Assembly: GCF_009712225.1 (NCBI RefSeq)
Contig: NZ_WASP01000003.1
Span: 62,001-126,000, forward strand
Origin: Desulfovibrio sp.
Lineage (GTDB): Bacteria > Desulfobacterota > Desulfovibrionia > Desulfovibrionales > Desulfovibrionaceae
Direction of reading: 5' to 3'
Length of the DNA stretch: 64,000 nucleotides
The notes under the pieces were generated by a model. The model worked only from the letters and a program-made list of their open reading frames with translations. It was not told where the DNA came from and ran no database searches. A program made the position numbers and the translations under genes. Numbering within the stretch: the first letter of the stretch is position 1; every line of letters starts with the position of its first letter. This document shows positions 6,306 through 40,873 of this stretch, piece after piece.

Positions 6306-6327
6306 GTATATTTTTTTGGTCTACTTC

Positions 6328-17005: not shown

Positions 17006-18520
17006 TTAGAACTGATAGACGAAGGTCACGCCCACATTCCAGGCGTCGCGTACGTTATCGCTCTTGCCATTCATGCGACTGTTGCCCCATACGGTCTTTG
17101 ACTTGTCAAGGTACAGTGCATCATAGTTTGCATCAACGTAGACAACAAAGTTGTCGTACATCTTGTACTTGTTGCTCAAGCCAAATTCGAGGACGGCGTC
17201 ATTGCGCGTCAGATACAGACCTTCACGTCCGGCGATGCTGCCGTCGTTGGCAGACATCCATGACCCAGTGGACCGGTTGATCTTCTTGAGAACACCCGGA
17301 TCATTGGTGCCCCCAATGTAGTTGATGCGGAGAGTGTGGGAAAGGTTGTCGATAAAGCTCATGTCCTTCAACCGGGCGCCTATACCCCAAAGGCCGGACA
17401 TGGACTTGCCCACGATGCTGTCCCGGCCCATAATCGGATCGCCATGAAAGGCAAAACCAGAATAACTGTTGGGGTTATTGGGATGCAGAAAAGGCATGCG
17501 CTCCGAACCGTTGCCCAGGTTGTCGTCGTCGCCCGAAGCATACCAGCCGTAGAGACCAGGGGTGGCCCAGTCCAGTTTGTATTCCATCAGCACAGTACCC
17601 AGCCAACCGGCCCGGTTCATGGAGCTGTCGTCATATTGCACTGAACCGTATTCGAAATCCCACGAGAAGATAAAAGGATCAAGAATTGTAACCTGCCCAG
17701 GCAGGCCCACCCACACGGCGTTGCCGTACTGGGAGAGCTTCTGGTTATGACGCCCGCCGAACAGTGGCAGCAAGCCCGCACGCAACGAAGAACCGGACGC
17801 ATTGCTAGCGTAAGTGTATATCTGCGTGTTGTTGACGGAGTTGTAGTTAATGGCGGGTCCGATGCCAGCGTACATGCCCCAAGGTGTCACCTTGATGCCG
17901 TCAAAGGTCAACGGCACGGTTAGACCGAAGGCATCAAGGTTATCCATGTAATTGACGTAACGGCTGGTCGCCGCTGTGGAGTTGTCATTAAGAATACGGG
18001 CCCAGAATCCAGTGACACCCACGTTATCATTGATAGCATACGAAGTGGTGATTGCCGCCACATCGTCTGCCAGCACCTGGTTGCTGTTAATAAAATCTGG
18101 GAGCTGCATAGGTTGAATACCCATGCGTACCTTCAGATCTGTCTGCGGGACAGCCCAATCAAGATACGACCATTTAACTTTTACCCATGTTCCATCTGCC
18201 CCCAAGGATGCGCCACTTGCATTACTGCCCCAGTATTGGGCTGTCCCTCGGTTATAGCCGCCAATTTCAAAGTGCACGGTTCCCGAAAGGGATTCTGAAG
18301 CGACAGCATCCAACTGCAAACGAACCTGCTGGTTAGCTTCAAACTCGTCTTCAGAGCTGTTGAACCCAGTCCTTCCATTACCGCCTGTGAAGGAACCATT
18401 GGCACCGTAGCTAAAATTGTACGCCCATCGTCCCTTCATTTTGAAATCGATGGCATTCGCTCCAGCCGGCAGTGAAAATAATAAACCTGCCGCCAAGAGT
18501 AGTACTGCTATCTTTTTCAT
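17006..18520 (-). CDS. Outer-membrane porin (Desulfovibrio homotrimeric porin type)
   Basis: The 504-residue protein has a clear signal peptide (KIAVLLLAAGLLFSLPAGANA), many alternating aromatic beta strands, and a C-terminal strand ending in Phe (VGVTFVYQF), the outer-membrane insertion signature. It is a general or substrate-linked porin of the type abundant in Desulfovibrio. It is read in the same direction as the fix/etf genes. Placement next to the catabolic genes suggests uptake of their substrate, though this porin family occurs in many copies per genome. Confidence 0.9.
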   Translation of the reverse strand: MKKIAVLLLAAGLLFSLPAGANAIDFKMKGRWAYNFSYGANGSFTGGNGRTGFNSSEDEFEANQQVRLQLDAVASESLSGTVHFEIGGYNRGTAQYWGSNASGASLGADGTWVKVKWSYLDWAVPQTDLKVRMGIQPMQLPDFINSNQVLADDVAAITTSYAINDNVGVTGFWARILNDNSTAATSRYVNYMDNLDAFGLTVPLTFDGIKVTPWGMYAGIGPAINYNSVNNTQIYTYASNASGSSLRAGLLPLFGGRHNQKLSQYGNAVWVGLPGQVTILDPFIFSWDFEYGSVQYDDSSMNRAGWLGTVLMEYKLDWATPGLYGWYASGDDDNLGNGSERMPFLHPNNPNSYSGFAFHGDPIMGRDSIVGKSMSGLWGIGARLKDMSFIDNLSHTLRINYIGGTNDPGVLKKINRSTGSWMSANDGSIAGREGLYLTRNDAVLEFGLSNKYKMYDNFVVYVDANYDALYLDKSKTVWGNSRMNGKSDNVRDAWNVGVTFVYQF

Positions 18521-18681: not shown

Positions 18682-18966
18682 TTATCCAAATCTGTATTCA
18701 ACACCGAGAGTTCCACAGGGATACTCCCATTTTTTTATAATTGTTTTTCCACACAACACTCGGCACGTTCCGCATTCAAGACAGCCTGCGTAGTCAAAGA
18801 ATATTGATCCGTCATCGCCACGCTTGTACAAACCTGCAGGGCAAGCCATCATCAGCTTTCTGAATTCTTCAGGATCAGGGTTGTCTACCAGTTCAATATG
18901 AGCGTTGCTTTCATCCACATAGAATTTATTGACGCCAAGTTTGACATCCACGTTTACGCTGTTCAT
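18682..18966 (-). CDS. fixX: FixX-type ferredoxin-like protein
   Basis: The 94-residue protein has the FixX pattern: CPAGLYKRGDDGSIFFDYAG, then CLECGTCRVLCG. It probably binds one [4Fe-4S] cluster. FixX is the small electron-transfer partner of FixC, like the ferredoxin domain of ETF-quinone oxidoreductase. The start ATG shares ATGA with the fixC stop, so translation is coupled. Length matches E. coli FixX (95 aa). The open frame extends upstream, but that part is fixC. Confidence 0.93.
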   Translation of the reverse strand: MNSVNVDVKLGVNKFYVDESNAHIELVDNPDPEEFRKLMMACPAGLYKRGDDGSIFFDYAGCLECGTCRVLCGKTIIKKWEYPCGTLGVEYRFG

Positions 18967-20249
18967 ATGGACCGCACTCCTTTGAAGCCGTCTTTCATCA
19001 GGTTCAAGGGGCCAACCTTTCTGATCTCGCACCAGAGCTTTTTCCACAGGGGCTGCTCCGGCCCGTTGATGGTGAACATCTGGCGCATAACGCCCGTGAC
19101 CATTTGCGGGTACTCGTTAAAAATTCTTGAATTATCCAAGAATGCTGGCAGATTTTTATAAAGGCTCATGTCCTTCATGATGAAGCTTTCATCCAGAAGG
19201 GTTTTGTAGGAGGCAAGCCCCCTCTCGCTGAAATCGTTTGCCTTGCGGGCGGCCATAACAGCCTTGGCCGCAGCCTCGCCAGAAGCCACCGCCAGATCCA
19301 TGCCGCGCACCGTGTAGCCCACGTTGAGGCAGAAGCCCGCAGCGTCGCCCGCTATCAGCACACCGTCTCCCACGAGCTTGGGCACCATATTGAGCCCACC
19401 CTCAGGCACAACGTGTGCCGAGTACTCAACAAGCTTGCCGCCGCTCACCAAGGGGGCCACAGCCGGATGATTTTTAAAATCTTCCAGCATTTGCGGCACG
19501 CTCTTGTTGGTGAGGCCCACGCTGTGCAAGCCAAACACAAGCCCCAGAGAAACGGTATTTTCGTTGGTGTAAAGAAAGCCACCGCCAAGGAATCCGTTTG
19601 AAGGGTACCCGGCAAACAGCCAGGCCAGGCCATCCTTTCCTTCGCAGCCAAAACGGTCGGCCATCTGGGCGGGGGTCAACTCTATGAGTTCTTTCACACC
19701 AACGGCCACAGTGTGGGGCGTGACCTTGTCGACCATGCCGAGCTGCTCGCCCAGTATGGAATTGACGCCGTCCGCCAGTATGACCACATGGGCCTCAAGC
19801 TCATCATCGCCAGCTTTTACGCCGCAGACCTTGCCGTCGCGCACGATAAGCTCTTCGACCCGCACGCCGGGAATAGGCTGCGCCCCGGCGCTTTCGGCCT
19901 TTTCCATAAACCACTGATCAAACTTGCCGCGCAGGATCGTGTACGACTGCTCCTCGGGTCGCATGGAACGCGCGGTCTGGTAGTCCATGGTCACGGCACT
20001 GTCTGCGGTCAGAAATGAAATCTTTTCGCGGGCGACGCGACGTTCAATCGGAGCCTCGTCAACAAACCCGGGTATGATCTTTTCCAGGCTGTGCGCGTAG
20101 AGGCGCCCGCCAGTCATATTTTTGCTGCCAGCGTAGTTGCCCCGCTCTATCAGCAGAACAGAGAGACCTTCCTTGGCAAGCAGATAGCCAGCGGTGCAGC
20201 CAGCCAAACCGGCCCCCACGATAATTGCGTCAAACTTGTCATCCGACAT
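18963..20249 (-). CDS. fixC: FixC-type flavoprotein (ETF:quinone oxidoreductase family)
   Basis: The 428-residue protein starts with an FAD Rossmann motif (DAIIVGAGLAGCTAGYLLA) and has the second FAD site LIAGDAAGFCLNVGYTVRGMD near residues 310-330. Length is as in E. coli FixC. With FixX it takes electrons from EtfAB/FixAB to the quinone pool, or takes part in electron bifurcation. The ATG at 20249 is preferred because GAGGTGG stands just upstream; the frame opens at 20267. Confidence 0.93.
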   Translation of the reverse strand: MSDDKFDAIIVGAGLAGCTAGYLLAKEGLSVLLIERGNYAGSKNMTGGRLYAHSLEKIIPGFVDEAPIERRVAREKISFLTADSAVTMDYQTARSMRPEEQSYTILRGKFDQWFMEKAESAGAQPIPGVRVEELIVRDGKVCGVKAGDDELEAHVVILADGVNSILGEQLGMVDKVTPHTVAVGVKELIELTPAQMADRFGCEGKDGLAWLFAGYPSNGFLGGGFLYTNENTVSLGLVFGLHSVGLTNKSVPQMLEDFKNHPAVAPLVSGGKLVEYSAHVVPEGGLNMVPKLVGDGVLIAGDAAGFCLNVGYTVRGMDLAVASGEAAAKAVMAARKANDFSERGLASYKTLLDESFIMKDMSLYKNLPAFLDNSRIFNEYPQMVTGVMRQMFTINGPEQPLWKKLWCEIRKVGPLNLMKDGFKGVRSI

Positions 20250-20422
20250 AGCGCCACCTCTCGTCATAATTTTGCATCAGCCCTTGAGCGTCATTCGGGC
20301 CCGCACAACTTGAATCTTTACCCTGCGCTGCTGCATCCCTTGCCCACACCGGTCACGCCTTGCGGCAAAAATCGTCTACAACCGGTATACAGTCACAACA
20401 ACAATGGAGGCTGCCTTGTTTT

Positions 20423-20464
20423 ACGGTTTTCTCGATCGGTGACGCATCCTCTCGAGAAAACCGT
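20423..20464. repeat. 13-bp inverted repeat between etfA and fixC
   Basis: ACGGTTTTCTCGA and its complement TCGAGAAAACCGT are separated by 16 nt in the 270-bp gap between etfA and fixC. No T-tract follows the stem on the minus strand. It could cap the etfBA message, weaken read-through into fixCX, or be a protein-binding site. Confidence 0.55.
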
Positions 20465-20519
20465 TTCCACGGGTTCTTTGCGCCGACACTACATACGTAA
20501 GTCAGCATTTTTACATTAT

Positions 20520-21455
20520 TTATTTTAAAAGACTGGTCAGGCCGGGCAATACCTTATACAGGTCTCCCACAATGCCGTAGTCCACAAAATTGAAGATGGG
20601 AGCGTTTTTGTCCTTACTTACCGCGATGATTACCTTGGAACCGTTGGCCCCAACCATGTGCTGAATCTGGCCGGAAACGCCCACGGCAAAGTACACGTCG
20701 GCCTTCAGCATCACGCCCGAGACGCCAATGTAGCGTTCACGCTCCATCCAGCCTTCGCCTTCAGCCACGGGGCGAGAGCAGCCAAGCTCCGCTCCGATGA
20801 CCGTGGCGAGATTTTCCGCCAGGGCGAGATCTTCTTTTTTGGCAAATCCGCGCCCTACGCAAAGCACCTTTTTGGCTTTACACAGATCAACAGAACTGCC
20901 CTGTTTTGGCGTCTGTCCCACAACCTTGGGCATAATGGCCGGGGGCACAAAAGCGCCCTGCTTCAGTTCGGCCTTGCGTGAAGCGTCCGGGGCTGCTGGT
21001 TCGAACGAGCCGGAGGACAGAGTAAGAACGCAGACCGGTGAGGTGATCTTTTCGCTGCCAGAGGCCAACCCGCCAAAAACCATGCGACCGACGGTAACGG
21101 AGTCGGCAATTTCAACCTTGGTCACTTCATTGGCTACAGCCGCGCCAAGCTGCACGCCCATGCGGGCGGCCAGGGCACGACCGCGCTTGCTGGGGGGCAA
21201 CAAAACCATGGCCTTTTTGCCGCAACCGGCGACCAAGGCGGAAAAGGAGGGGGCGTAATCTTCAAGCATTACGTCTTGCTGCGGGGCAAACGTGTAAACG
21301 ACGCCAGCGCCAAGCGATGCTGCGTACTGGGCGTCCTCGTCGGTGCCCACCACAAAAGCGCACACGTCTTCGCCCAGGGCGAGCGCCCCGGCGATGATTT
21401 CGGGCAGGCGGTCCTTTTTATCGCTGAACACAAAAATTATGGGCATTTTAGACAT
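20520..21455 (-). CDS. etfA: Electron transfer flavoprotein alpha subunit (EtfA/FixB)
   Basis: The 311-residue protein has the ETF alpha C-terminal FAD domain: VGRGFAKKEDLALAENLATV, GVSGQIQHMVGANGSKVIIA and DYGIVGDLYKVLPGL. It pairs with the EtfB gene 16 bp upstream. Length is close to E. coli FixB (313 aa). With EtfB it carries electrons between the acyl-CoA dehydrogenase and FixCX. Confidence 0.94.
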   Translation of the reverse strand: MSKMPIIFVFSDKKDRLPEIIAGALALGEDVCAFVVGTDEDAQYAASLGAGVVYTFAPQQDVMLEDYAPSFSALVAGCGKKAMVLLPPSKRGRALAARMGVQLGAAVANEVTKVEIADSVTVGRMVFGGLASGSEKITSPVCVLTLSSGSFEPAAPDASRKAELKQGAFVPPAIMPKVVGQTPKQGSSVDLCKAKKVLCVGRGFAKKEDLALAENLATVIGAELGCSRPVAEGEGWMERERYIGVSGVMLKADVYFAVGVSGQIQHMVGANGSKVIIAVSKDKNAPIFNFVDYGIVGDLYKVLPGLTSLLK

Positions 21456-21471
21456 TGCTCACTCCTTACAG

Positions 21472-22242
21472 CTAGTTCAAAATCTTTCGGATATTGGCCG
21501 CAAAAGCTGCGATCTGTTCTTCCGAATCGCCCTCGATGATTTCCCTCTTCCGATCAGCCTGATCAGGGGCAAGGATGGAGAGCACTGTGCTGGCGGGGGC
21601 AGAACTATAACCAGCATCTGCCAGCGAAATTTCCTCCACAGGCTTTTTGCTGGCTGCCAGAATGGCCTTCATGCTCGGGATCTTGGGCACGTTGATGTCG
21701 GTGGTGACGGAAAGAACCGCAGGCAAGGGCACTTCGACGATTTCCACTTCGTCCTCCAGATCACGTTCTACCCGTGCAGTGGAACCGTTGATCGTGATTT
21801 TGCCCACGCTGTTGATTGTGGGCACGCCCAAAAGCTCGCCCAAAAGCAGGCCGGTCTGCTGCGCGTAAAGGTCGGCCGAACCTTCGCCGCACAAAATGAG
21901 GTCAAAACCCAATTTTTTTGCGGCTCCAGCCATGATTTTTGCGGTTTCACCGGGCAGGATTCCGGCAAGGGCCTCGTCGCCCACAACGGCAAGGCTGTCT
22001 GCCCCACGGGACAAAATATCCTTGCGAACCTTGGTGTTGCTCGTGCTTACCTTTGCGCCCACAGTCAGGGCAGTTACTGTGCTGCCCTCCTGGGTAGCCG
22101 CCAGTTCCACGCCGGCTTCCAGGGCATTCAGGTCATAAAGGCTGATCTTCAAACCGGCGGTGTCCAGTTTGAGGGTTTTATCGTTATTTACGGATATGTC
22201 CTGTTCTTCAGGAACAATCTTGCAGCAGGAAATGATTTTCAT
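21472..22242 (-). CDS. etfB: Electron transfer flavoprotein beta subunit (EtfB/FixA)
   Basis: The 256-residue protein begins KIISCCKIVPEEQDISVN and contains the ETF beta signature region DLILCGEGSADLYAQQTGLL and VPTINSVGKI. Length equals E. coli FixA (256 aa). An ATG with GAGGAGAA upstream is used. It is the first gene of the etf pair. A partial TTGTGGACAA box lies 48 bp upstream. Confidence 0.94.
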   Translation of the reverse strand: MKIISCCKIVPEEQDISVNNDKTLKLDTAGLKISLYDLNALEAGVELAATQEGSTVTALTVGAKVSTSNTKVRKDILSRGADSLAVVGDEALAGILPGETAKIMAGAAKKLGFDLILCGEGSADLYAQQTGLLLGELLGVPTINSVGKITINGSTARVERDLEDEVEIVEVPLPAVLSVTTDINVPKIPSMKAILAASKKPVEEISLADAGYSSAPASTVLSILAPDQADRKREIIEGDSEEQIAAFAANIRKILN

Positions 22243-22289
22243 AGTTCTCCTCGCGTCTTATTAGTGTAATATTGAGATGCTATGTATTT

Positions 22290-22299
22290 TTGTGGACAA
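22290..22299. promoter_or_regulatory. TTGTGGACAA box upstream of etfB, weak operator candidate
   Basis: It differs in one base from the TTGTCGACAA palindrome found in the ligase/MFS divergent region. It lies 48-57 bp before the etfB start. A one-mismatch match could be chance. Confidence 0.3.
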
Positions 22300-22327
22300 G
22301 CTACGAGACAAATACAGTGTGTATTCG

Positions 22328-23536
22328 CTAAATTCCGTATTCTCTGGCCTCCCTACACTTGTTCAGAACAATGGTCAGGCCAGTCCCCAGACCACCAAGT
22401 AAAATGATAAAGATGGTCATTGGCGCATATGAACCACTGGTGCCGTGTAGCACCCCCGCCACATAGGGCCCCAGAAATGACGCCACAATGAGCACCATAT
22501 TGACCATGCTGAAATTTACCGGATAGTTGGCTTCACCATAAAAAGAGCGGATAAAAACGGCATTCATGGGCAGCACCCCACCAAAGCTCAGACCGATCAG
22601 CACAAAACCAGTTACGGCAAGTCTGATATCGCCAATTCGCAAGGCGTACAGCAGGATGCCCCCTGCAATGCAAAATCCCGCGCCCACAAGCAGCATGACG
22701 CGCGCACGCCCGATCTTGTCGTACAGGCCGCCAACGATCACGCGCCCAAACCCGTTGCAGACGGAAACAATCCCTGCCAGCAGAGCTGCCTCATCCGCAC
22801 CGATGGCCATGCCCGCCATAAAGGGCACGGAATGGGCGATGAGCATGAGCCCGGCGGCGGAAAGCAGGCTCGACCATGCAAAAAATATCCAGAAGCTTGG
22901 CCGCTGCAGCATGAGCGATGCCGTGATGTTCTCCCGCCTCTGCCCCCTGCAGGCTGCGGAATTTTCAGAGTAGACCTGCCCGGCTCTGGGAGGGGCCATA
23001 ACCGTTGAGCACAACAGAATCACAACCGGAAACGCCACGCCGATGGCAAAAAATGTCAGACGCCAGCCGATGTCTTTGACCAGCAGACTGCCCGATGCCC
23101 CTAGAACCATGCCGCCAAAGCCGAAGGCCATCATCAAAAGCCCCGAGATAAAGCCTGTACGGTCAGGGAACCAGCGCAAAACCGTGCTCAAAACCGCGTT
23201 GTAGGCCAGGCCGACGCCAAGGCCCACCAACAGTCCGTAGGTCATGTACAGCTCGGTCAGCGACGTTACGCGCGAGGCAAGGCTAAACCCTGCGCCCATG
23301 GCCAAAGCGCATCCCCACAGGGCAACACGCGAAGAAAATTTTTTTTGCAAAAAACCGGAAATCAGCCCGCCCACACAGAACATTGACATACATATGGAAA
23401 ATGCCATTGATGTTTGAGAGCGTTGCCAGCCAAATTCTTTTTCCATTGGCCCGGCAAAAACAGACCACGCATACACCACGCCAAGGAGAAGAAGCGTAAG
23501 CATTCCTGAAAGTGCTATAAAATTGCGCTTTTGCAT
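22328..23536 (-). CDS. MFS transporter, OFA (oxalate/formate antiporter) family
   Basis: The 402-residue protein has twelve hydrophobic segments and the start FIALSGMLTLLLLGVVYAWS typical of OFA-family carriers, with GRVIVGGLYDKIGRARVM between TM8 and TM9. OFA carriers move small carboxylates, often in exchange for a product. It sits between etfB and the acyl-CoA dehydrogenase, so substrate/product exchange for the pathway is likely. Its substrate cannot be predicted. Confidence 0.88.
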   Translation of the reverse strand: MQKRNFIALSGMLTLLLLGVVYAWSVFAGPMEKEFGWQRSQTSMAFSICMSMFCVGGLISGFLQKKFSSRVALWGCALAMGAGFSLASRVTSLTELYMTYGLLVGLGVGLAYNAVLSTVLRWFPDRTGFISGLLMMAFGFGGMVLGASGSLLVKDIGWRLTFFAIGVAFPVVILLCSTVMAPPRAGQVYSENSAACRGQRRENITASLMLQRPSFWIFFAWSSLLSAAGLMLIAHSVPFMAGMAIGADEAALLAGIVSVCNGFGRVIVGGLYDKIGRARVMLLVGAGFCIAGGILLYALRIGDIRLAVTGFVLIGLSFGGVLPMNAVFIRSFYGEANYPVNFSMVNMVLIVASFLGPYVAGVLHGTSGSYAPMTIFIILLGGLGTGLTIVLNKCREAREYGI

Positions 23537-23740
23537 CAGAGTGCTCGCTTTTCTTGCAATACGTTATTCATAATCAGCTCCAACCCATCTTCTGTTAGTA
23601 TTTGTCTGCCCGGTAATTCTGTATTTTTTGATGGAGCCGACATGTACGCCATGTACGATGCATTTTGTGTTGCCGGATTTGTTACGCGTATCCGGCCCTG
23701 GTGCGGTTGATGCGGCCACAAATGGCGGCCTACGCATTTA

Positions 23741-23773
23741 CCGGCGGTCCCGGCCCACTGCCGGGACCGCCGG
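23741..23773. terminator. GC-rich 14-bp hairpin after the acyl-CoA dehydrogenase
   Basis: A perfect stem CCGGCGGTCCCGGC with a 5-nt loop lies 13 bp past the acyl-CoA dehydrogenase stop. No T-tract follows on the minus strand, so it may stabilise mRNA ends or partly terminate rather than fully terminate. Confidence 0.6.
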
Positions 23774-23785
23774 GCGCATGGCATC

Positions 23786-24925
23786 CTACCCGAGAACGTG
23801 CTTCGCAATGACGATCCGCTGAATCTCGCTCGTACCTTCAAATATTTCGGTGAGCTTGGCTTCGCGGAACAGCCGTTCCACAGGGTAAGATTTGGTGTAG
23901 CCCATGCCGCCGTGCAGCTGGACGGCGTGGTGGGTCACAAACATGGCAGTTTCAGCGCAGAACAGTTTGGCCATGGCCGACTCTTTACTGAACTTTTCGC
24001 CAGCATCCTTCATGGCCGCGGCGCGGTACACCAGCATACGGGCGCAGTCCACGCGGGTGGCCATATCGGCTATCATCCACTGGACGCCCTGATTGGCGGC
24101 AATGGGTTTGCCAAACTGGATGCGTTCCTTGGTATACTTGACGGTGGCGTCCAGAGCGCTTTGGGCCAGCCCAAGGGAGATGGCGGCGCAGCTCATGCGA
24201 CCGCTGTCCAGCGTTTCCATGGCTATCTTGAAGCCCTGGCCTTCCTTGCCCAGCATATTGGAGGCGGGGATGACGCAGTCGCAAAAATCGACGGCGCAGG
24301 TTTCCGACCCGTTCATGCCCATCTTTTCTTCTGGTTGACCGATGGTGATACCCGGAGTGCCCTTTTCAACCAAAAAGGCTGTGATGCCTTTGACTCCTTG
24401 GCTTTTGTCGGTCATGGCCAGCACGATAAACACGGACCCGGCGGGCGCGGCCGTAATCCACAGCTTGGAGCCGTTAATCACATAGGTATCGCCCTGGCGC
24501 ACGGCCGTGGTCTGCTGACTGGCGGCGTCGCAGCCCGCCCCAGGCTCTGAAAGACAAAAGCAGCCGAGCTTGTCGCCATTGATCATGCCTGGGATCAGGC
24601 GCTCCTTGATTTCGTCGTTGGCGTATTTGAGCAGAATAGGCGTGGTCAGCGAGCACTGCGAGCCTATAATCATTGCGTGGGCGGCACTGACTTTGGCGAT
24701 TTCCTCAGTTGCCAGCACATAGCTGACGGCGTCGGCGTTACTGGCGCCGTATTTTTCGGGCAGACAGAAACCAAACAGCCCAAGATCGGCCATGGGTTTG
24801 ATGCTCTCGGAAGGAAACCGGTGGTTTCTGTCGATCTCGGCGGCAATTGGGGCCACATGCTGTTCAACAAATTCCTTGACCATGCTTTTGATCAGGGATT
24901 GTTCCTCGGTAAGTGAAAAATCCAT
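23786..24925 (-). CDS. Acyl-CoA dehydrogenase / enoyl-CoA reductase (CaiA-like)
   Basis: The 379-residue flavoprotein shows the three acyl-CoA dehydrogenase regions and the C-terminal LTEIFEGTSEIQRIVIAKHVLG, in which the Glu of FEGTSE is the usual catalytic base. CLSEPGAGCDAASQ and WITAAPAGSVFIVLA are standard FAD-binding segments. Length matches CaiA (380 aa). Next to EtfAB/FixCX it probably reduces the enoyl-CoA made by the dehydratase, or runs as an oxidase in reverse. The acyl chain is not predictable. Confidence 0.93.
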   Translation of the reverse strand: MDFSLTEEQSLIKSMVKEFVEQHVAPIAAEIDRNHRFPSESIKPMADLGLFGFCLPEKYGASNADAVSYVLATEEIAKVSAAHAMIIGSQCSLTTPILLKYANDEIKERLIPGMINGDKLGCFCLSEPGAGCDAASQQTTAVRQGDTYVINGSKLWITAAPAGSVFIVLAMTDKSQGVKGITAFLVEKGTPGITIGQPEEKMGMNGSETCAVDFCDCVIPASNMLGKEGQGFKIAMETLDSGRMSCAAISLGLAQSALDATVKYTKERIQFGKPIAANQGVQWMIADMATRVDCARMLVYRAAAMKDAGEKFSKESAMAKLFCAETAMFVTHHAVQLHGGMGYTKSYPVERLFREAKLTEIFEGTSEIQRIVIAKHVLG

Positions 24926-25007
24926 ACGAGCTCCTCTTTTTCAGACATTTATGCAGATGATCCGCCGGTAACGGCATGCAGCCGCCCATCTCGCCGCATG
25001 GCAGGCA

Positions 25008-26159
25008 CTAAGGTTTTTCATGCGCACCGTTGCGCTTTGCATAGCCACGTATCTTCATGGGGCCAAAAAGCAGCAGCGGTATAACGGTGAGCACCAGACC
25101 GAACAGGCCCATGTAGGCAAAGCCCTTGGCCACAATAGTCACCAGCCCAAGCTGAGAGACTGCGAACGCATAAAGAAGCGTAATAATTGCGATTATGCAA
25201 TTTCTTGCACGCAATGATGGTATTTTTCCCTCAGGCAGCAGCTTCCAGACCTTGGAGTTTTCAAAACGGCGCACCGAGGCAAACACAAAGGCGAACGCTG
25301 TGGAGATAAAGGCGAAAAACATGGCGATGGTGTAGAACGTACGCAGCAGGTTTTGATCAAGATGCTCAACGATGTAGAGCACCGGAATCGGAATTTTTTC
25401 GCTAAGTACTTCAGGGTAGTAGCCAAGCAGCATAAAGCACACCAGAGCCAGGCACGTGCCGTTGATCAGCACCCCGGTTATGGCGGCCTTTGCGCACTGC
25501 GCACGGCTCTGCAGAGGCTCGGCCACTGAAACAAAAGGCGCGATAAAGGTCTGGAACGAGCAATAAATCAGGGTCATCCACAGAGCGTGGGTCCAGCTGA
25601 AATCGGCCGGGGCGATCTGGTTATGAATGTTGGCGATGATCACGTCCCATTTGGTGTTGATGCCAACCGCCACCACCGCACCCAAAAAGAACAGAAGGGC
25701 AACGGTCTTGATGCCTGCCAGGCGACGTACCAGCTCAGCGCCAAACACAGAGCACAGGAACACAATGGTGGTCATGATCATGGTGCCCAAAAAATACGGG
25801 GTGCCAAACGAGTGCTCCAGAATGGACGAACCACCGGCTATGGCCGCAGCCGGGGGCATGCACAAAAAGATGATGAATACAGCATCCTGAAGATTGGCAA
25901 AAATTTTGTCGAAGGGGTAATAAAAGCGGTCAACCCATGACCGCAGGTCGTAGGATTTGCTGACCCGCGCAAACTCCCACATCATAAAAACGCAGCAGCC
26001 CTGAATGCTCATGGCAAGGAAAGGAAGGAACACGCATGTCCAGCCACTGGTGAGAAAATACCTCACCTCTTGCTGCCCGGAGGCAAAACCGCCGCCGGAG
26101 TGCATGGCAAACCAGAAGGTTGAACACAACAACCAAGCAGGAATGAATTTTTTGGTCAT
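25008..26159 (-). CDS. YkvI-like multi-span membrane transporter (APC-type fold)
   Basis: The product (383 residues from the ATG at 26159) has about ten hydrophobic segments. It resembles YkvI-family proteins of the amino-acid/polyamine/organocation superfamily (PAWLLCSTFWFAMHSGGGFASGQQ, with a Gly-rich first helix). The frame opens at 26258, but the upstream part is cysteine-rich and has no ribosome-binding site. It is read with the dehydratase genes. It is a second candidate uptake route. Confidence 0.78.
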   Translation of the reverse strand: MTKKFIPAWLLCSTFWFAMHSGGGFASGQQEVRYFLTSGWTCVFLPFLAMSIQGCCVFMMWEFARVSKSYDLRSWVDRFYYPFDKIFANLQDAVFIIFLCMPPAAAIAGGSSILEHSFGTPYFLGTMIMTTIVFLCSVFGAELVRRLAGIKTVALLFFLGAVVAVGINTKWDVIIANIHNQIAPADFSWTHALWMTLIYCSFQTFIAPFVSVAEPLQSRAQCAKAAITGVLINGTCLALVCFMLLGYYPEVLSEKIPIPVLYIVEHLDQNLLRTFYTIAMFFAFISTAFAFVFASVRRFENSKVWKLLPEGKIPSLRARNCIIAIITLLYAFAVSQLGLVTIVAKGFAYMGLFGLVLTVIPLLLFGPMKIRGYAKRNGAHEKP

Positions 26160-26264
26160 ACTCAGGCCCATTTTTTCAAAGGGTTGAGAACCGCCCCCGA
26201 CACAGCACTGGCAAGCAGTGCGCCTCAAGCGCCGCCCGTTTTTATAAAACCGCCACACATCAAG

Positions 26265-26297
26265 GTTCCCGCGCCAGAACCGCTCCGGCGCGGGAAC
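26265..26297. terminator. Hairpin after the dehydratase genes
   Basis: The stem GTTCCCGCGCC/GGCGCGGGAAC (11 bp, 11-nt loop) starts 6 bp past the stop of the dehydratase beta gene. No clear T-tract follows, so termination is probably partial. Confidence 0.6.
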
Positions 26298-26302
26298 ACC
26301 GG

Positions 26303-27433
26303 TCAGGCCGAAATCACGTCCGCAAAAGTCTGCAACGCGGTACGCGCCTGTTCAAAGCTGCGCATCTGCTGGTCAACCTCAACACTCACCATGGGAATAC
26401 CAGCCGCATCCAGGGCCTTTTTCACCATGGGGAAGTCAAATTCCTCGGGGTCGCAAAACTTGGTCATCAAAAAGACAACGCCCTGCGCGCCATGCTTTTT
26501 GACCATGTCCACAATCATGGGACCGCGCTTTTTGTCGGGGTCGTACAGTACAGAGCAGCCCTCCATGTCGGAGATCTGTCTGGCCAGGGCATTGAAGGGA
26601 TCGGCATCCGCCGGAACATCGGTGCGGTACTGGCGCGACTCTTGCGCCACTTCGTCCGCAACCACGGCAAACCGGTTGTCGGCCAGAACCTGCAGCAAGG
26701 CCTGGCTATCGGCCAGAATGCCTGTTGTGACGACCTTGTGCCCGTCCCAGTCCTTCATGGGCTGCTGGCGGCACAGTTCAATGATTTGCCTGACAGTGGC
26801 GGTGTGCTCACCCTTGTCCATAAAACCGCCGCTCTTGATGACGGCATTGCGCTGCGCGGGCGAAATCAAATGGGGGTACAGCGCCGCCACATCAGAAAAT
26901 TCACGCAGGGCAGCGCGCTGGGCGTTGCAGATATCAATGGCTTTTTGCAGTGAAGCCGCGTCCACCTTATGCCCCGAAATGGCCGACAGTTTTTCGGCGA
27001 TGGTCACGTACTGCTTGCGCATAAACTCGACGCCTGCGGGCAGTTTGCGGTTTTGAGGATGGATAACGGGAATGAATGGGACGTTTTTGACGCCCACCTT
27101 CCAGTTTTGCCCAAGACACTTGAGCGTGTCGCAGAGCACGGGAATCATGGCGCCCGAGAGCTTGTCGAGCTTGCCGTTCAGGCCCATCTCAAGACAGGTC
27201 TGGGCAATGCCGCAGTAAAAGGAAGGAAAATATTTTTTGGCGCTGGAAATTTCCATTTCTGCGCCCCAGACAGCAAAAGGCGTCATACCGGCGGCGATCA
27301 CCAACTCAGCTGGCGAGTATACCGGGAAACACCCAATGGCCTTTTTGCCCTGCGCCACGATTGCGTTCAGTTGCGCAGCCGGATTGGCCGCCACATCAGA
27401 CAGTTTCTGAAGGGTATCGTTGAGCGTGCTCAT
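26303..27433 (-). CDS. 2-hydroxyacyl-CoA dehydratase, beta-type subunit (HgdB family)
   Basis: The 376-residue protein belongs to the HgdB/BadD/FldC family. Conserved cysteines likely to bind a [4Fe-4S] cluster are seen at CFPVYSPAELV (residue 35), FYCGIAQTC (about 73-79) and LCDTLKC (about 100-106). Two such subunits form the dehydratase that removes water from a 2-hydroxyacyl-CoA by a ketyl radical. The start overlaps the alpha-subunit stop (TAATG). The substrate (lactyl-, phenyllactyl-, hydroxyglutaryl-type) is not readable from motifs. Confidence 0.93.
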   Translation of the reverse strand: MSTLNDTLQKLSDVAANPAAQLNAIVAQGKKAIGCFPVYSPAELVIAAGMTPFAVWGAEMEISSAKKYFPSFYCGIAQTCLEMGLNGKLDKLSGAMIPVLCDTLKCLGQNWKVGVKNVPFIPVIHPQNRKLPAGVEFMRKQYVTIAEKLSAISGHKVDAASLQKAIDICNAQRAALREFSDVAALYPHLISPAQRNAVIKSGGFMDKGEHTATVRQIIELCRQQPMKDWDGHKVVTTGILADSQALLQVLADNRFAVVADEVAQESRQYRTDVPADADPFNALARQISDMEGCSVLYDPDKKRGPMIVDMVKKHGAQGVVFLMTKFCDPEEFDFPMVKKALDAAGIPMVSVEVDQQMRSFEQARTALQTFADVISA

Positions 27434-28656
27434 TATGCTTTCGCCTCCTTATTGGCAGCCATCACTTCGCACAAAGCTTCAATGCGGGTCTGGTACTGAG
27501 CTTCTGAGAAGACGCGGGGGTCAGCCTGGTCGCCATCAAAGGTAACGGTGGGGATATGCAGCGTGTCGCGTATGCGGCGCTCCACTTCGGGCATGATGCC
27601 ACTCCAGAGCTTGCAGCTTCTGTTGGTATGAATGATGGCACCGTCGATTTTGTTTTCGCGACCCACGTTGATGCGCATGTCGGCGGCACGCTCGACAGAC
27701 ACGCAGTTGGGCACGTACGAGTAGGCGCGCATCATTTCGGCGGTGTTGTTGTAAAGAACGCCAAAGGCTGTGGCGTACACCGTTGCTGTGACGTTGATGC
27801 CGTGCTCTTTGAGGGGAGCCGATGTGGCACGCAGGTACGGCCAACAGGCGATGCCTTCAAACAGCACGCGATATTTCTGTTCGCCCTTGTAGGTGGAGGC
27901 GCCGGTTTTGACGGCGGCCTCGTATTCGTCAGCAAGCTGCTCAAAGGCCTCGGCAGCCTCAACGGTACCGCGAGCGCATACCGCGACGGCCATGTGGTTG
28001 AACAGGTCAAAGCCATTAAGGGGTGATGGCACGTATCTGGTGAACTCGGCGGCGCGCAACCAGGCCTTGGCCGTACGCTGCGAGACAGCCATTACTTCCT
28101 TGAAGCGCTCTTCAGAGAACGGCTTTCCGGTAATTTCAGAAAGCTGCTGCATGGCATGGTCAAACTGCGCCTTGATGTACTCCACAGAGGCGTCGTCGGT
28201 TTCGTAATCATTCTTGAACGGAATATCGATGAGGATCATGGGGATATTGCGTTCTTTGGCGATATTTTCGTACCACTTTATCATGCAGTTGCAGATATTG
28301 TTGCAGCACAGGACAAAGTCCGGCTGGGGCATATCCATTTCTTCGCAGCTGCCAATGTCTAGAAAGGCCAGACTGGTGCGCGCATAGGCGCAGATGTCGT
28401 TGGAATACCCCAGGCCCTCGGCATGCTCACACATGCGCAAACCGCCACCTTTGGCCGCAATGGCTGCCGCCTGGTTTTCTGGATAGACAACCTTGATGCC
28501 GAGGGTCTGCGGAATTTCCTGCGGGAAATTCGAGGCGCACCACCCCACCATCTCACCACGTTTCTTGGCCTCCCAGGCCTCTTCGTAAGCTTTTGCGGCA
28601 ATGTCGCGCAGTCGTATTTTTGCCGGCACCGGTTCGCCAACATTCTGTTCACTCAT
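27433..28656 (-). CDS. 2-hydroxyacyl-CoA dehydratase, alpha-type subunit (HgdA family)
   Basis: The 407-residue protein has the same fold as its partner, with WCASNFPQEIPQTLG, MCEHAEGLGYSNDICAYAR and CCNNICNCMIKWYENIA providing cluster cysteines. The ATG follows AAGGAG. It lies between the activator gene and the beta subunit, the usual order activator-alpha-beta. Together they catalyse reversible syn-dehydration of a (R)-2-hydroxyacyl-CoA in related enzymes. Confidence 0.93.
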   Translation of the reverse strand: MSEQNVGEPVPAKIRLRDIAAKAYEEAWEAKKRGEMVGWCASNFPQEIPQTLGIKVVYPENQAAAIAAKGGGLRMCEHAEGLGYSNDICAYARTSLAFLDIGSCEEMDMPQPDFVLCCNNICNCMIKWYENIAKERNIPMILIDIPFKNDYETDDASVEYIKAQFDHAMQQLSEITGKPFSEERFKEVMAVSQRTAKAWLRAAEFTRYVPSPLNGFDLFNHMAVAVCARGTVEAAEAFEQLADEYEAAVKTGASTYKGEQKYRVLFEGIACWPYLRATSAPLKEHGINVTATVYATAFGVLYNNTAEMMRAYSYVPNCVSVERAADMRINVGRENKIDGAIIHTNRSCKLWSGIMPEVERRIRDTLHIPTVTFDGDQADPRVFSEAQYQTRIEALCEVMAANKEAKA

Positions 28657-28672
28657 GGGATGTCTCCTTGAG

Positions 28673-29464
28673 CTAAGATTTTTTGGAACAGCTGTCGTAC
28701 GCGTACAGGGCAGCCCCCAAAGCTCCGCACAGCACGGAGAGGGGCGACACCTGGATTGGCGTATTCAGTTCTTCCGAAAGGATGCGCACAACTTCAGAGT
28801 CAGTAGCCACGCCACCGGTCATGGCGACCAGGGGCGTGACGCCAACCCGTTTCACTAATCCTGCGGTTTTGCTTGCGATCGAATGATGGATTCCATCAAT
28901 AATGTCAGGAATTGATACTCCGCTTGCGAGATGCGAAATGACTTCAGATTCTGCAAATACGGTGCATGTTGAGCTTATTTTGACATATTTAGTCGCTTTT
29001 TTTCCAAGTGATGCCATTTCAGACAACTTGACTTCGAGCACTCTGGACATAACATCGAGGAATCTTCCCGTGCCTGCAGCGCATTTGTCATTCATAACAA
29101 AGTTTTCAAGCATACCTTGTTCTGAAATATGCATGGCTTTTACGTCCTGGCCACCTATATCTATAAGCGTACGTACTCCAGAAAACAGACGCACGGCCCC
29201 ACGGGCATGGCAGCTCAGTTCGCTCATCTCTTTGTCCGCCTCTTTGACCGAGTTGCGACCATAGCCAGTGGCACAGACAAAGGAGATGTCGCCAGAGCTT
29301 TTACCGCAGGCCGCCAGAGCTTCGCCCATGGCCCTGCCGGGGCCGCTGGTACCCGCGCCTACGGGGACCACCGCCTTGGAGACGATGGCTTCACCGTTCT
29401 GCAGAATGATGCATTTGGAAGCGGAAGAACCGATGTCTACGCCCATTGTCAAAATAGAATTCAT
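28673..29464 (-). CDS. Activator ATPase of 2-hydroxyacyl-CoA dehydratase (HgdC family)
   Basis: The 263-residue ASKHA-fold protein has GVDIGSSASKCIIL at the phosphate site and DIGGQDVKAM. It has the two cysteines that bind the shared [4Fe-4S] cluster of the homodimer (NDKCAAGTGRFLD and SSTCTVFAESE). It uses ATP to inject one electron into the dehydratase, which needs a strong reductant such as reduced ferredoxin. The ATG at 29464 is chosen because GAGG stands eight bases upstream. Confidence 0.95.
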   Translation of the reverse strand: MNSILTMGVDIGSSASKCIILQNGEAIVSKAVVPVGAGTSGPGRAMGEALAACGKSSGDISFVCATGYGRNSVKEADKEMSELSCHARGAVRLFSGVRTLIDIGGQDVKAMHISEQGMLENFVMNDKCAAGTGRFLDVMSRVLEVKLSEMASLGKKATKYVKISSTCTVFAESEVISHLASGVSIPDIIDGIHHSIASKTAGLVKRVGVTPLVAMTGGVATDSEVVRILSEELNTPIQVSPLSVLCGALGAALYAYDSCSKKS

Positions 29465-29484
29465 GCACAAAACCTCACTTCACC

Positions 29485-30717
29485 TTATTTCCAGGCGCAA
29501 ACTTCCTTATTGGCGATCATTTCGTCGACCTGCTCCTTGGTGTAGCCAAGGCTGCCAAGAATCTTGTAGTTATCGCCGCCCACAAGGGGAGCCTGCTTGT
29601 ATTCCGGGAGGCCCATTTCTTCAAAATCTATGGGGATACGCACGAGAGTACGGTTGTTACCGTTGGGGTATTGCATCTTGTAGAAGGTCTCGATTGCCCA
29701 TGCCTGCTTGTCTTCGAGGATTTCTTCCCAGGTCTGCGCAATAGAGAAAGGAATATCGTGGGCGGTGAATATCTCGGCCCATTCCTTGACGGTTTTGGTC
29801 TGGAAGGCTTCCCACAAAATGTCGTACAACTCGGGTGAACGCTTGTGCTTGGCCACGACTTCCATCTTGGTGTAGCGCTCGTCTTCAGCCAGATCTTCAC
29901 GCCCTATGCACTTCATGAAGGTGGGGTAATAGGCATCATAGACGGGCATACATATCTGGATGAACCGGTCATCCTTGGTCTTGTAGGCCACAATGAAAGG
30001 ACTGATGGTTTCGCGGCGGTCGATGGGGTATACTTGGCCGTAGTCGGAATACTGCGCACCCTGGATCATGATGCCCTGGGTATAGATGGCTGTGTGCAGC
30101 AGGTTGGTGGAGACTTTTTCCCCTTTGCCGGTGCGCTGGGCGTTGATGTAGGCGGCAAGAATGCCTGCGGCCAGCATCATACCGCACTGATGATCGCCCA
30201 GACCGGGAACCACATTCATGGGCACCGTACCCTTTTGGTACAGGGTGCCCAGCATTCCGCCTCGCGCAAAAAAGGCAGTGTAGTCAAAACCGGGCAGATC
30301 TTTGTCCGGACCTTTCTCGCCGTAACCGGTGGCATTGGCGTAGACAAGCTTGGGGAAAACAGTTTTGAGGTCGGCGTATGAGAGCTTGGCGCGTTCGAGC
30401 GCCTGAGGACGCCAATTGGTTACAAAGATGTCGGCCTTCTCCAGAAGTTGAAAGAGAATTTTCCTGCCGCCGGGCGTCTTCATATCCAGGCCTAGGCTCA
30501 GCTTGTTGGCATTTTCAAGATCAAAGGTGGTATTTTCGTTATGGTCGAGAGGGCGCCCCTCGGTGGGAGCGGTCCAGCGCAAGTTATCACCCTTGGCTCC
30601 TTCGATCTTGATGACCTCCGCGCCCATATCGGCCAGCATGCGCGTAGCGGAAGGAACGGCAATAAAGGTTGCCAGCTCCACAATTTTGACCCCTTCCAGC
30701 AGTTTTCTCTCAGACAT
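29485..30717 (-). CDS. Family III CoA-transferase (CaiB/BaiF type)
   Basis: The 410-residue protein begins LEGVKIVELATFIAVPSATR and has the family III pattern with FDYTAFFARGGMLG, whose Asp (near residue 145) is expected to form the acyl-anhydride intermediate. Length matches CaiB (405 aa) and FldA-type transferases. It would load the 2-hydroxyacid with CoA taken from the reduced product, saving ATP. It lies 20 bp upstream of the activator gene. Confidence 0.93.
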   Translation of the reverse strand: MSERKLLEGVKIVELATFIAVPSATRMLADMGAEVIKIEGAKGDNLRWTAPTEGRPLDHNENTTFDLENANKLSLGLDMKTPGGRKILFQLLEKADIFVTNWRPQALERAKLSYADLKTVFPKLVYANATGYGEKGPDKDLPGFDYTAFFARGGMLGTLYQKGTVPMNVVPGLGDHQCGMMLAAGILAAYINAQRTGKGEKVSTNLLHTAIYTQGIMIQGAQYSDYGQVYPIDRRETISPFIVAYKTKDDRFIQICMPVYDAYYPTFMKCIGREDLAEDERYTKMEVVAKHKRSPELYDILWEAFQTKTVKEWAEIFTAHDIPFSIAQTWEEILEDKQAWAIETFYKMQYPNGNNRTLVRIPIDFEEMGLPEYKQAPLVGGDNYKILGSLGYTKEQVDEMIANKEVCAWK

Positions 30718-30783
30718 TGATTTTCTCCTTAATTGCGTTGGCTACAGAAAAGACAATTTACTATTACCTTAAATGCACTATTG

Positions 30784-32397
30784 CTAAGCACATTCAGCAC
30801 TAAGTCTATCTTTTAAATATTGAATATTAATCTTTCCATTATCGTTTAATGGCATTTCATCAATAATCATAAACTTACTTGGAATCTTATAATGAGCAAT
30901 TTTACCATATAATTCATTTTTTAAATCACTTTCTGTTATTGAATGTCCTGCACAAGGAATAACTACTGCAACAACTTCTTCTCCAAGATCTTTTGAAAAT
31001 ACGCCAAATACTTTTACCTGATACACGTATGGAATTTTTTTCAATGCACATTCTATTTCTATTGGACTTATATTTTCACCTCCACGCACAATAATATCTT
31101 TAATTCTATATGAATAATGCCAATCACCATGTATATCTACAAATCCAGCATCGCCAGTATGGTACCAGCAGGTATCATCCATAACCGTTGATACCTGCCC
31201 ATGCAGCCCTAGATACCCCCTCATCACATGAAATCCACGGGTCCACAGCTCGCCGATTTCACCGGGCAGCAGTTCATCACCGGTATCTGGATCGACGACC
31301 TTCATTTCCACACCGGGCAAGGGCACACCGATAGTGGTGCACTTCAGCTCTATATCCGCATCTGGGAATGTTTGAGTGCAACAAGGTGAGGTTTCCGTTT
31401 GACCATAGGCAATGGAAAGACCATCCATGCCAAGCCTGTTTACTATGGCAGCCACAAGCGCTTCACTGCATTGTGAACCTGCAATGATGCCTTTTTTGAG
31501 AACCAGATTATTTGATTCTCCCACAGATACTGCTTCCAATAATCTTCCAAACATTGTTGGAACGCCGTGCAGAACAGTACATTTATACTCTTCACAATAT
31601 TTTATGACGTCAGAGACCCTGTATCGTTCAAGTATTACCAGCGGAACACCGCAAGCAATGCTGCCAATAAGACACGTCGAAAGACCAAAACAGTGAAATA
31701 GCGGTACCGCCATGCAGCACAAATCTCTTGCGGCATCCAGCCCGAGACGCTGGATGGAGAAAAAAGCATTATTGACCAAGTTGTCGTGCGTGAGCATTAC
31801 GCCCTTGGGGCGGCAGGTACTGCCAGAGGTAAACAGGATGCTCGCAACATGGTGCGGCTGGACGGTTGCGCGGATGCTGGCATAAAAATCGGCGGAAAGG
31901 CTTACGCCGAGCTCAGCCAGGTCAGCAGCCCGCACGGAGGAGGCAATGGCACTGCCGCCGAGGTTGACCGAAAACTTGAGCGTTGATGGTTCTGTGGCGT
32001 CTGCACAATCTACAAACAGCTCATTGACCACTGTCGCGTAATCCACATCGCGGTAGCCGTCCGCATAGCAGATGCAAGCGCATCGGGTGCGGAGGACAAT
32101 GTCTGCAATCTCCGGCCGGGTCAGATGAATACTGACCGGCACAAACACCGCGCCAATCTTGATAGCTGCAAGGCCACAGACAATCAGCGAGACCGAATTG
32201 CACGACCACCCCACAACGGTATCGCCTGCACGCAGCCCTTTGACCCACAACCCCTTGGCATAGGCATCGGTCAACGCGTCAAGCTCCCTCCAGGACAACC
32301 GCTCGCCGGTGCTCGCCTGAATTAGGGCGTCAGTTTCCGGCCAAATTTCAGCGGCATAGCTGAGAAAGTCGCCAATGGTTAAAGCAAAAGGCCTCAT
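30784..32397 (-). CDS. AMP-forming acyl-CoA ligase (CaiC/FadK-like)
   Basis: The 537-residue protein has ANL-superfamily motifs: ILFTSGSTCRPKGVMLTHDN (P-loop), AYGQTETSPC, and GELWTRGFHVMRGYLG with YHTGDAGFVD. The C-terminal lid includes KDIIVRGGENISPIEIE and GKINIQYLKDRL with the catalytic Lys. The ATG at 32397 follows AAGGGG; the frame opens 46 codons upstream, inside an operator-bearing AT-rich stretch. Codon GC content drops sharply in the last 360 bp. It probably primes the pathway with a first acyl-CoA. Confidence 0.93.
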   Translation of the reverse strand: MRPFALTIGDFLSYAAEIWPETDALIQASTGERLSWRELDALTDAYAKGLWVKGLRAGDTVVGWSCNSVSLIVCGLAAIKIGAVFVPVSIHLTRPEIADIVLRTRCACICYADGYRDVDYATVVNELFVDCADATEPSTLKFSVNLGGSAIASSVRAADLAELGVSLSADFYASIRATVQPHHVASILFTSGSTCRPKGVMLTHDNLVNNAFFSIQRLGLDAARDLCCMAVPLFHCFGLSTCLIGSIACGVPLVILERYRVSDVIKYCEEYKCTVLHGVPTMFGRLLEAVSVGESNNLVLKKGIIAGSQCSEALVAAIVNRLGMDGLSIAYGQTETSPCCTQTFPDADIELKCTTIGVPLPGVEMKVVDPDTGDELLPGEIGELWTRGFHVMRGYLGLHGQVSTVMDDTCWYHTGDAGFVDIHGDWHYSYRIKDIIVRGGENISPIEIECALKKIPYVYQVKVFGVFSKDLGEEVVAVVIPCAGHSITESDLKNELYGKIAHYKIPSKFMIIDEMPLNDNGKINIQYLKDRLSAECA

Positions 32398-32476
32398 ACT
32401 TACCCCTTGATCAAATTCAGCATTCATAAATCGCGGCAGACCACGAACCGATAAAAAGCATTCATTTAAAATACAT

Positions 32477-32488
32477 ATTGTCGACAAT
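32477..32488. promoter_or_regulatory. Operator-like palindrome ATTGTCGACAAT, copy 1
   Basis: Perfect 12-bp palindrome 80 bp upstream of the ligase start. It fits the TNGTNNACNA pattern of FCD-type GntR regulators. Confidence 0.65.
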
Positions 32489-32780
32489 GAAAATTCAATA
32501 TCTACGAAAAAAATATTATCTCTACCCACTGACATTAAAATAGATAAAAAATAATCAAATATTATTATAAATAAATATGAAATATATAAAAGTAAAAAAA
32601 TAAATAATTTCTAAAAACAATTTAATATTACATATGTCCTACTACAACTTACCATAATAACACCAATTGCAAAATAAAATTCAAATATTAACTTGACAAA
32701 TATTTTTTTATTAAAGTTATTTTATCATTTATTTTTCAAAATAAATTAATTTTAAATCACTACAGCAAGCATATACATTG

Positions 32781-33019: not shown

Positions 33020-33417
33020 GCGATTTTTTTTGCACATCTTATTCTATACCCCTATTTGAGATAAAAATCACAAATAAGCCATAAAAAACTCATATTCTAA
33101 TTTTTTTTGGTTAAAATACATTTAAAAAACATTGTATATTTGTTTTTAAAAAAAAATTGTCACGTGTGAACGATGTTACTATTGCAATTAGTTCTATTTT
33201 AAATTGTATACAATGCAATAAATTAATTTTTACATTATGTGTTTTACATTTACTGCGGACATTTTTTTAAAAATTAGCATTTTTTTAAAAAAATATTATT
33301 TCTTTACTTTTTAAAAACACGATGAGAATTCTCATTTTATCAGAGCATGAAAAAGTTCGTTCCTCAAACGTACTGAAACTGTTTTTGAGGCTGAGAAAAC
33401 AACTGGTGAGGTGGGAG

Positions 33418-38686: not shown

Positions 38687-38696
38687 AGGGGATACC

Positions 38697-40870: not shown

Positions 40871-40873
40871 AAA

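Follow-up and report, generated by a model that had tools for sequence, protein, structure and literature searches.

We analyzed a 64,000-nt stretch of the Desulfovibrio sp. genome (hereafter the window; coordinates are counted from its first letter) that carries, side by side, genes for a radical 2-hydroxyacyl-CoA dehydratase with its activator (hadI, hadB, and hadC) and for a FixABCX electron-transfer complex. Open reading frame (ORF) and family-profile searches found every cai-, fix-, and dehydratase-type gene that an earlier reading of this DNA (the original prediction) had named. They are intact and collinear on the (−) strand from 32535 to 18682, in the order ligase, CoA-transferase, activator, hadB, hadC, APC-fold protein, acyl-CoA dehydrogenase, MFS transporter, and fixA-B-C-X. 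Several things can be read directly from the sequence: which genes are present, the cofactor-ligand residues, the conserved linkage, the loss of the bifurcation motifs, and the mobility. They point to a mobile module that may reduce a 2-hydroxyacid with electrons from quinols. The features of the locus, most of which lie in a block (16122–40478) shared with a second genome of the genus, are as follows:

16188–16847 (+), GntR/FCD-type regulator at the edge of the shared block, which begins at 16122 (Pfam FCD and GntR)
17006–18520 (−), outer membrane homotrimeric porin DESULF_POR1 (NCBIfam NF033939, 435 bits, cut-off 250)
18682–18966 (−), fixX, ferredoxin-like, 6 Cys (sufficient for one [4Fe-4S]) (NF011993, E 3e-39; 60% to E. 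coli FixX)
18963–20267 (−), fixC, flavoprotein resembling electron transfer flavoprotein (ETF)-quinone oxidoreductase (NF007542, 629 bits, cut-off 610; ETFQO_UQ-bd; 63% to E. coli FixC; 7koe_C)
20520–21455 (−), fixB, ETF alpha type, Arg124 present (ETF_alpha, E 1e-27; 50% to E. coli FixB; alignment)
21472–22242 (−), fixA, ETF beta type, lacking RxGV and SPTxV (NF002888 above cut-off; motif scan)
22328–23536 (−), MFS transporter, relative of the lactate/oxalate-formate family (NF049980, E 7e-80, below cut-off)
23786–24925 (−), acyl-CoA dehydrogenase, predicted enoyl-CoA reductase, with the EGTSE catalytic Glu motif (AcrC/AcdA-like NF042972, 496 bits; 5ol2_C, 436 bits)
25008–26159 (−), APC-fold transporter without a Pfam or NCBIfam match (AlphaFold pLDDT 77; Foldseek to AdiC and other APC transporters)
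26303–27433 (−), hadC/fldC-type 2-hydroxyacyl-CoA dehydratase subunit (PF06050; 3o3m_B, 417 bits)
27433–28656 (−), hadB/fldB-type 2-hydroxyacyl-CoA dehydratase subunit (PF06050; 3o3m_A, 425 bits, 48% identity; tree)
28673–29464 (−), hadI/fldI-type activator ATPase, cluster Cys 130 and 169 present (TIGR00241 above cut-off; 1hux, 300 bits)
29485–30717 (−), family III CoA-transferase, FldA/HadA-like (PF02515; 67–70% to enteric and 52–54% to Peptostreptococcus counterparts)
30784–32535 (−), AMP-forming acyl-CoA ligase, likely start near 32397 (PF00501; enteric homologue 545 aa)
33322–34710 (+), MFS transporter of the anion:cation symporter type (TIGR00893, E 6e-72)
34782–36089 (+), LarA-type nickel-pincer isomerase of group 22, predicted 2-hydroxyacid racemase (NF052515, 474 bits, cut-off 400)
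36592–38625 (+), chemoreceptor with a dCache sensor domain (Pfam)
38673–39488 (+), larC, N-terminal part only (PF01969, positions 1–235 of 375)
39510–40253 (+), larB (NF033503 above cut-off)
40921–40997 (−), tRNA-Arg(acg), island boundary (synteny with relatives starts at 40869–40878)

The protein lengths proved close to those of the E. coli set, as had been claimed. FixX, FixC, FixB, and FixA comprise 94, 434 (ORF), 311, and 256 aa, respectively (95, 428, 313, and 256 aa in E. coli), the acyl-CoA dehydrogenase 379 aa (CaiA, 380 aa), the CoA-transferase 410 aa (CaiB, 405 aa), and the ligase ORF 583 aa, or ~537 aa if begun at the likely start (CaiC, 517 aa). The dehydratase (376 and 407 aa) and its activator (265 aa) have the hallmarks of an (R)-2-hydroxyacyl-CoA dehydratase, namely two PF06050 subunits with conserved cluster Cys and an ASKHA-fold activator with two cluster Cys. 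The fixX ATG lies at 18966, in a 4-bp overlap with the fixC stop, and the hadB and hadC reading frames also overlap. Two genes not named before sit inside the interval, the MFS carrier at 22328–23536 and the Pfam-less membrane protein at 25008–26159; the latter is modeled with an APC/LeuT-type fold (pLDDT 77; Foldseek E 7e-7 to AdiC), and 31 of 80 loci contain homologues of it alongside the cluster.

The second genome of the genus (G003) carries 16122–40478 at 84–90% identity, ~0.9 Mb from its glyQ/tRNA-Arg locus. In the window genome, the block lies directly against tRNA-Arg(acg), the point at which synteny with three relatives sets in. Judged from these sequences, 16122–40478 moves as a block and, because it is shared with G003 at another site, the functional unit probably reaches past the interval first noted to include all ~24 kb, with the porin, regulator, racemase, and chemoreceptor. 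A large hybrid histidine kinase is encoded just outside the shared block (12102–14963). Farther left lie an integrase gene (6823–8259) and ParA-like and T2SSE genes (within 2940–8259), and the G+C content left of the tRNA is mostly lower. Together with the tRNA-Arg on the right, these genes suggest an integrative element; a search of the window and the genome for a second attachment site, in the form of a repeated tRNA-Arg 3′ end, found none nearby. Within the genus, HadB of the window kind occurs in 2 of 79 genomes, and across the rest of the sampled phylum the closest HadB homologues reach only ~30–36% identity; on these grounds, we rejected an ancestral trait of the genus.

Relatives of HadB were sought by scanning 11.3 million genome contigs, and most related loci were viewed with 10-kb flanks. 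The nearest (74–79% identity) belong to Leminorella, Proteus, Serratia, Escherichia albertii, Symbiopectobacterium, and a deltaproteobacterial metagenome-assembled genome (MAG), and the next tier (58–68%) is mostly clostridial. In a maximum-likelihood HadB tree, the window sequence forms a group (support 100/99) with four Enterobacterales rows and the deltaproteobacterial MAG, and Clostridioides difficile HadB falls outside it. The original prediction had proposed co-occurrence in other genomes as a check, and the had/fix combination does recur, in both Enterobacterales and Coriobacteriia. The order ligase-hadA-I-B-C-transporter-acyl-CoA dehydrogenase-fixA-B-C-X is kept in Leminorella, seven Proteus species, Serratia, and Symbiopectobacterium, with at least 10 Enterobacterales loci in all; where the transporter of the enteric loci was read, a GntP-type carrier occupies the APC-type position. 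Three Coriobacteriia genomes have hadAIBC, a YdiO-like acyl-CoA dehydrogenase, and fixABCX in one locus (one contig ends before the dehydrogenase), and the other eight have no fix genes within ~10 kb. Clostridial loci share the common core, followed by etfB-etfA. The had-fix linkage is thus conserved across three phyla. One could still suppose that two unrelated pathways are chance neighbors, as gaps of ~250 bp and differing transporters within the cluster might allow, but linkage and order are conserved in 10 Enterobacterales loci, three Coriobacteriia, and two Desulfovibrio-type genomes, which makes this highly improbable. Chance does not explain the gene association, given an identical order in at least 10 loci of Enterobacterales.

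The operon is nevertheless rare in Enterobacterales, since an even sampling of 395 genomes added no match beyond the center; likewise, 20,395 E. coli records held no match to E. albertii hadB or to the window acyl-CoA dehydrogenase. In Proteus (L053–L058, L062), two fixABCX sets lie close together: upstream an E. coli-like set with a YaaU-like carrier after it, and then the Had-linked set. The termite-gut deltaproteobacterial MAG (G463; L153, L061) has hadIBC-larA22 on one contig and, on another, fixXCBA with an acyl-CoA dehydrogenase, a GntP-like carrier, and a protein of 517 aa that inspection by eye assigned to the family I CoA-transferases; the two contigs are possibly one pathway divided by assembly. 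Other genomes of the genus contain a parallel cluster without a dehydratase (L154, L155, L156; G003 at 1.733–1.750 Mb, G042, G025), composed of a CaiB-like transferase, a YdiO-like acyl-CoA dehydrogenase (61–62% to E. coli YdiO), fixABCX, and a CaiC-like or other AMP-forming ligase, to which G003 and G042 add an MFS carrier as well as a chemoreceptor that is 56–57% identical to the one in the window. This cluster looks like a sister enoate-reduction module.

The racemase gene is a further recurring neighbor. The window protein scores above the LarA group 22 cut-off and has the conserved catalytic His and the Lys/His of the nickel-pincer nucleotide (NPN) site; H100, H165, H172, K178, and H194 are invariant in nine sequences, mapped to LarA positions by spacing only. 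The larA22 gene adjoins hadBC in 8 of 80 loci and in L061 from the termite-gut MAG. LarB is encoded next to it in the window, and LarE and a complete LarC are encoded elsewhere in the genome. No PDB match to LarA22 was obtained, and no characterized group 22 member was found in the LarA literature searched, of which the best papers leave this group unmentioned. Because of its recurrence beside hadBC, its invariant His/Lys residues, and the presence of LarE and complete LarC in the genome, LarA22 would be the racemase of the dehydratase's 2-hydroxyacid substrate. Together with the transporters and the chemoreceptor, the adjacent NPN racemase is consistent with a cell that takes up either enantiomer. 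The window larC covers model positions 1–235 of 375 and ends at a TAG with larB directly after it; the complete LarC is on contig C6, with another copy on C7.

The order FixA-FixB-FixC-FixX and the identities to E. coli K-12 (56%, 50%, 63%, and 60%, respectively) mark the complex as enteric-type FixABCX; FixA and FixC score over their subfamily-model cut-offs, and FixB and FixX under their equivalog cut-offs. The FixABCX homologues of Azotobacter vinelandii and Thermotoga maritima bifurcate electrons (PMC5861303, PMC10734219), and the original prediction had suggested that the window proteins could likewise serve both the enoyl-CoA reductase and, by bifurcation, the activator. Spelled out, electrons from NADH would be split between the enoyl-CoA reductase (or quinone) on one side and, on the other, a low-potential carrier that feeds the activator. 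According to the T. maritima EtfABCX study (PMC10734219), the beta subunit of group 2 complexes is marked by the motifs RxGV and GxxSPTxV, the alpha subunit by an Arg (R140), and EtfX by a pair of [4Fe-4S] clusters. Both RxGV and SPTxV are present in the 38 clostridial EtfB proteins of related loci, whereas neither occurs in the window, enteric, or E. coli FixA. FixX of Fix-linked clusters has 4–6 Cys, against 9 in T. maritima EtfX (7koe_D), whose extra Cys it lacks; the 6 Cys of the window FixX suffice for one [4Fe-4S] and not for two. In favor of bifurcation, the window FixB has an equivalent of the essential R140 (Arg124), but the enteric and E. coli FixB proteins used for comparison carry His there, and Arg also occurs in non-bifurcating ETFs, e.g., human ETF. 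FixC bears the ETFQO ubiquinone-binding domain. Moreover, because the dehydratase performs at least 1000 turnovers per ATP-driven activation (PMC8473912), stoichiometric low-potential electrons are unnecessary, and the electron need of the activator is merely catalytic. Based on the missing FixA motifs and FixX cysteines, we rejected bifurcation by Fix, which strikes us as very unlikely; judged by its motifs and Cys, the complex should not bifurcate electrons. The genome's match to the rnfC family falls below the cut-off and contains internal stops, and we make no claim of a classical Rnf. One paper that had seemed relevant (PMC9973337) deals with an Nfn homologue and was set aside.

Our preferred reading, to which we assign a probability of roughly 60%, is a mobile catabolic module that reduces a 2-hydroxyacid and is wired to quinones; its reductive direction, menaquinol donor, substrate class, and racemase role are what we infer from the comparisons above. 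The three carriers would import the acid, the LarA22 racemase would convert it to the (R) form, and the ligase would prime it to the CoA ester. The CoA-transferase would then sustain the cycle by taking CoA off the saturated product and loading it onto the incoming hydroxyacid. HadI would charge HadBC once, at the cost of ATP and a ferredoxin electron, and HadBC would remove water by a ketyl-radical mechanism to yield the enoyl-CoA. Electrons would run from menaquinol through FixC/FixX and FixAB to the acyl-CoA dehydrogenase and on to the enoyl-CoA. This route appears feasible without bifurcation because the step from menaquinone (−70 to −74 mV; PMC5861303, PMC10734219) to crotonyl-CoA/butyryl-CoA (−10 mV; PMC5861303) is downhill. 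The linkage conserved in three phyla supports two parts of the original prediction, namely that the cluster disposes of electrons by reducing a 2-hydroxyacid to its saturated counterpart and that FixABCX feeds electrons to the enoyl-CoA reductase.

Some observations weigh against this reading. The intergenic gaps of 249 and 252 bp within the cluster make several transcripts possible, the window FixB retains the Arg that is essential for T. maritima bifurcation (also found in human ETF), the acyl-CoA dehydrogenase is nearest to enzymes that partner bifurcating Etf, and the oxidative direction would be compatible with the sequence. In that direction, a saturated acid would be activated by the ligase and oxidized to the enoyl-CoA, electrons would flow via FixAB and FixCX to menaquinone and then sulfate, and HadBC would act as a hydratase to give a 2-hydroxyacid that is oxidized further. 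The resemblance of FixC to ETF-quinone oxidoreductase, the sulfate-reducer type of the host genome (porin DESULF_POR1), and the presence of a ligase in the cluster agree with this. However, Enterobacterales carry the same operon, and so do Stickland fermenters in a version with Etf that works reductively (PMC6384274) and whose CoA-transferase swaps CoA between product and substrate. E. coli fixABCX is associated with crotonobetainyl-CoA reduction. We regard an oxidative pathway as unlikely.

For the reductive module, the substrate is likely an aryl- or alkyl-lactate, although dehydratases of this group are broad. Lactate itself, reduced to propionate by the acrylate pathway with LarA22 as lactate racemase, is suggested by the best scores of the acyl-CoA dehydrogenase and the MFS carrier (acryloyl-CoA reductase AcrC and a lactate transporter, respectively, both below cut-off) and by LarA being the founder of the lactate racemase family. 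It seems quite unlikely, since the CoA-transferase belongs to family III and not to the family I propionyl-CoA transferases of lap/acrylate clusters (PMC8914356), and HadB is nearer to its homologue in Peptostreptococcus russellii (65%), a species reported to have fldAIBC (PMC10968020), than to C. difficile HadB (48%).

At odds somewhat short of even, the system represents a menaquinol-dependent 2-hydroxyacid respiration that is new to the papers searched, in which a radical dehydratase and a non-bifurcating FixABCX, on a mobile island with racemase, carriers, and chemoreceptor, are common to Desulfovibrio-type bacteria, Enterobacterales, and Coriobacteriia. If so, 2-hydroxyacids from lactic acid bacteria and clostridia of the gut (phenyllactate, indolelactate, etc.) would be respiratory electron acceptors for Desulfovibrio-type and culturable enteric bacteria, aryl-propionates would be formed by a non-clostridial route, and a single dehydratase core could be coupled to bifurcation in one setting (clostridial EtfBA) and to the quinone pool in another (FixABCX). 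LarA group 22 would also gain a predicted function, racemization of the dehydratase's 2-hydroxyacid substrate. The operons in culturable Leminorella and Serratia offer a direct test of the role of enteric-type FixABCX.

As for known systems, the set had been described as cai/fix-like, with the dehydratase replacing CaiD. Its FixABCX is 50–63% identical to that of E. coli, and the reductase, CoA-transferase, and ligase are of the same superfamilies as those of caiTABCDE; at that level the label “CaiA/B/C-type” holds. It fails for orthology, because identity to CaiA, CaiB, and CaiC is no more than 28%, 26%, and 27%, respectively, and the three enzymes score under the equivalog cut-offs; at such identities, we rejected membership in the cai system. 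In addition, family-profile searches of window 16–40 kb found no gene matching the CaiD hydratase or the CaiT antiporter, and the radical dehydratase takes 2-hydroxy rather than 3-hydroxy substrates.

The closest likeness is to the Stickland clostridia, in which C. difficile hadAIBC-acdB-etfBA (PMC6384274) and the fldAIBC clusters with acdA of Clostridium sporogenes and Peptostreptococcus have the same order of CoA-transferase, activator, dehydratase, and acyl-CoA dehydrogenase and share the conserved cluster-ligand Cys of dehydratase and activator. A complete fldAIBC cluster is reported in P. russellii (PMC10968020), whose homologue is ~65% identical to the window HadB (48% for C. difficile HadB). 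The window acyl-CoA dehydrogenase is nearest to AcrC/AcdA/butyryl-CoA-dehydrogenase-type enzymes, and the A-I-B-C-acd order comes with a family III CoA-transferase. With FixA equated with EtfB and FixB with EtfA, the window order matches that of C. difficile, plus fixC, fixX, and the inserted carriers. Given this gene order and the 26–28% identity of the Cai counterparts, the set is better described as a Fld/Had-type reductive 2-hydroxyacyl-CoA operon in which EtfBA has been exchanged for FixABCX than as a cai operon with CaiD swapped. The dedicated bifurcating EtfBA is absent from the window, with FixABCX in its place, and the set is a variant, not a plain member, of the Fld/Had reductive Stickland operons. 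The block has transporters, a chemoreceptor, and the NPN racemase but neither a 2-hydroxyacid dehydrogenase nor an aminotransferase; none of its main ORFs, to which this search was confined within the genome, matched FldH/LdhA. The original prediction knew of no described pathway with exactly these genes. In fact, the known Fld/Had pathway (PMC6384274) accounts for the dehydratase, the CoA-transferase, and the acyl-CoA dehydrogenase, and the Fix wiring alone is unfamiliar; the open-access papers searched yielded no description of the whole set.

The bifurcating FixABCX/EtfABCX of A. vinelandii and T. maritima resemble the window complex in their four subunits and the quinone-binding domain of FixC but differ in that the window FixA is without the motifs and its FixX has Cys for one cluster. 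Finally, the lap/acrylate cluster of Coprococcus catus likewise combines a dehydratase, an enantiomer-converting enzyme, and a permease for a 2-hydroxyacid, but it is defined by a family I propionyl-CoA transferase and a CoA-level epimerase (PMC8914356), whereas the window has a family III transferase and a LarA-type racemase predicted to act on the free acid.

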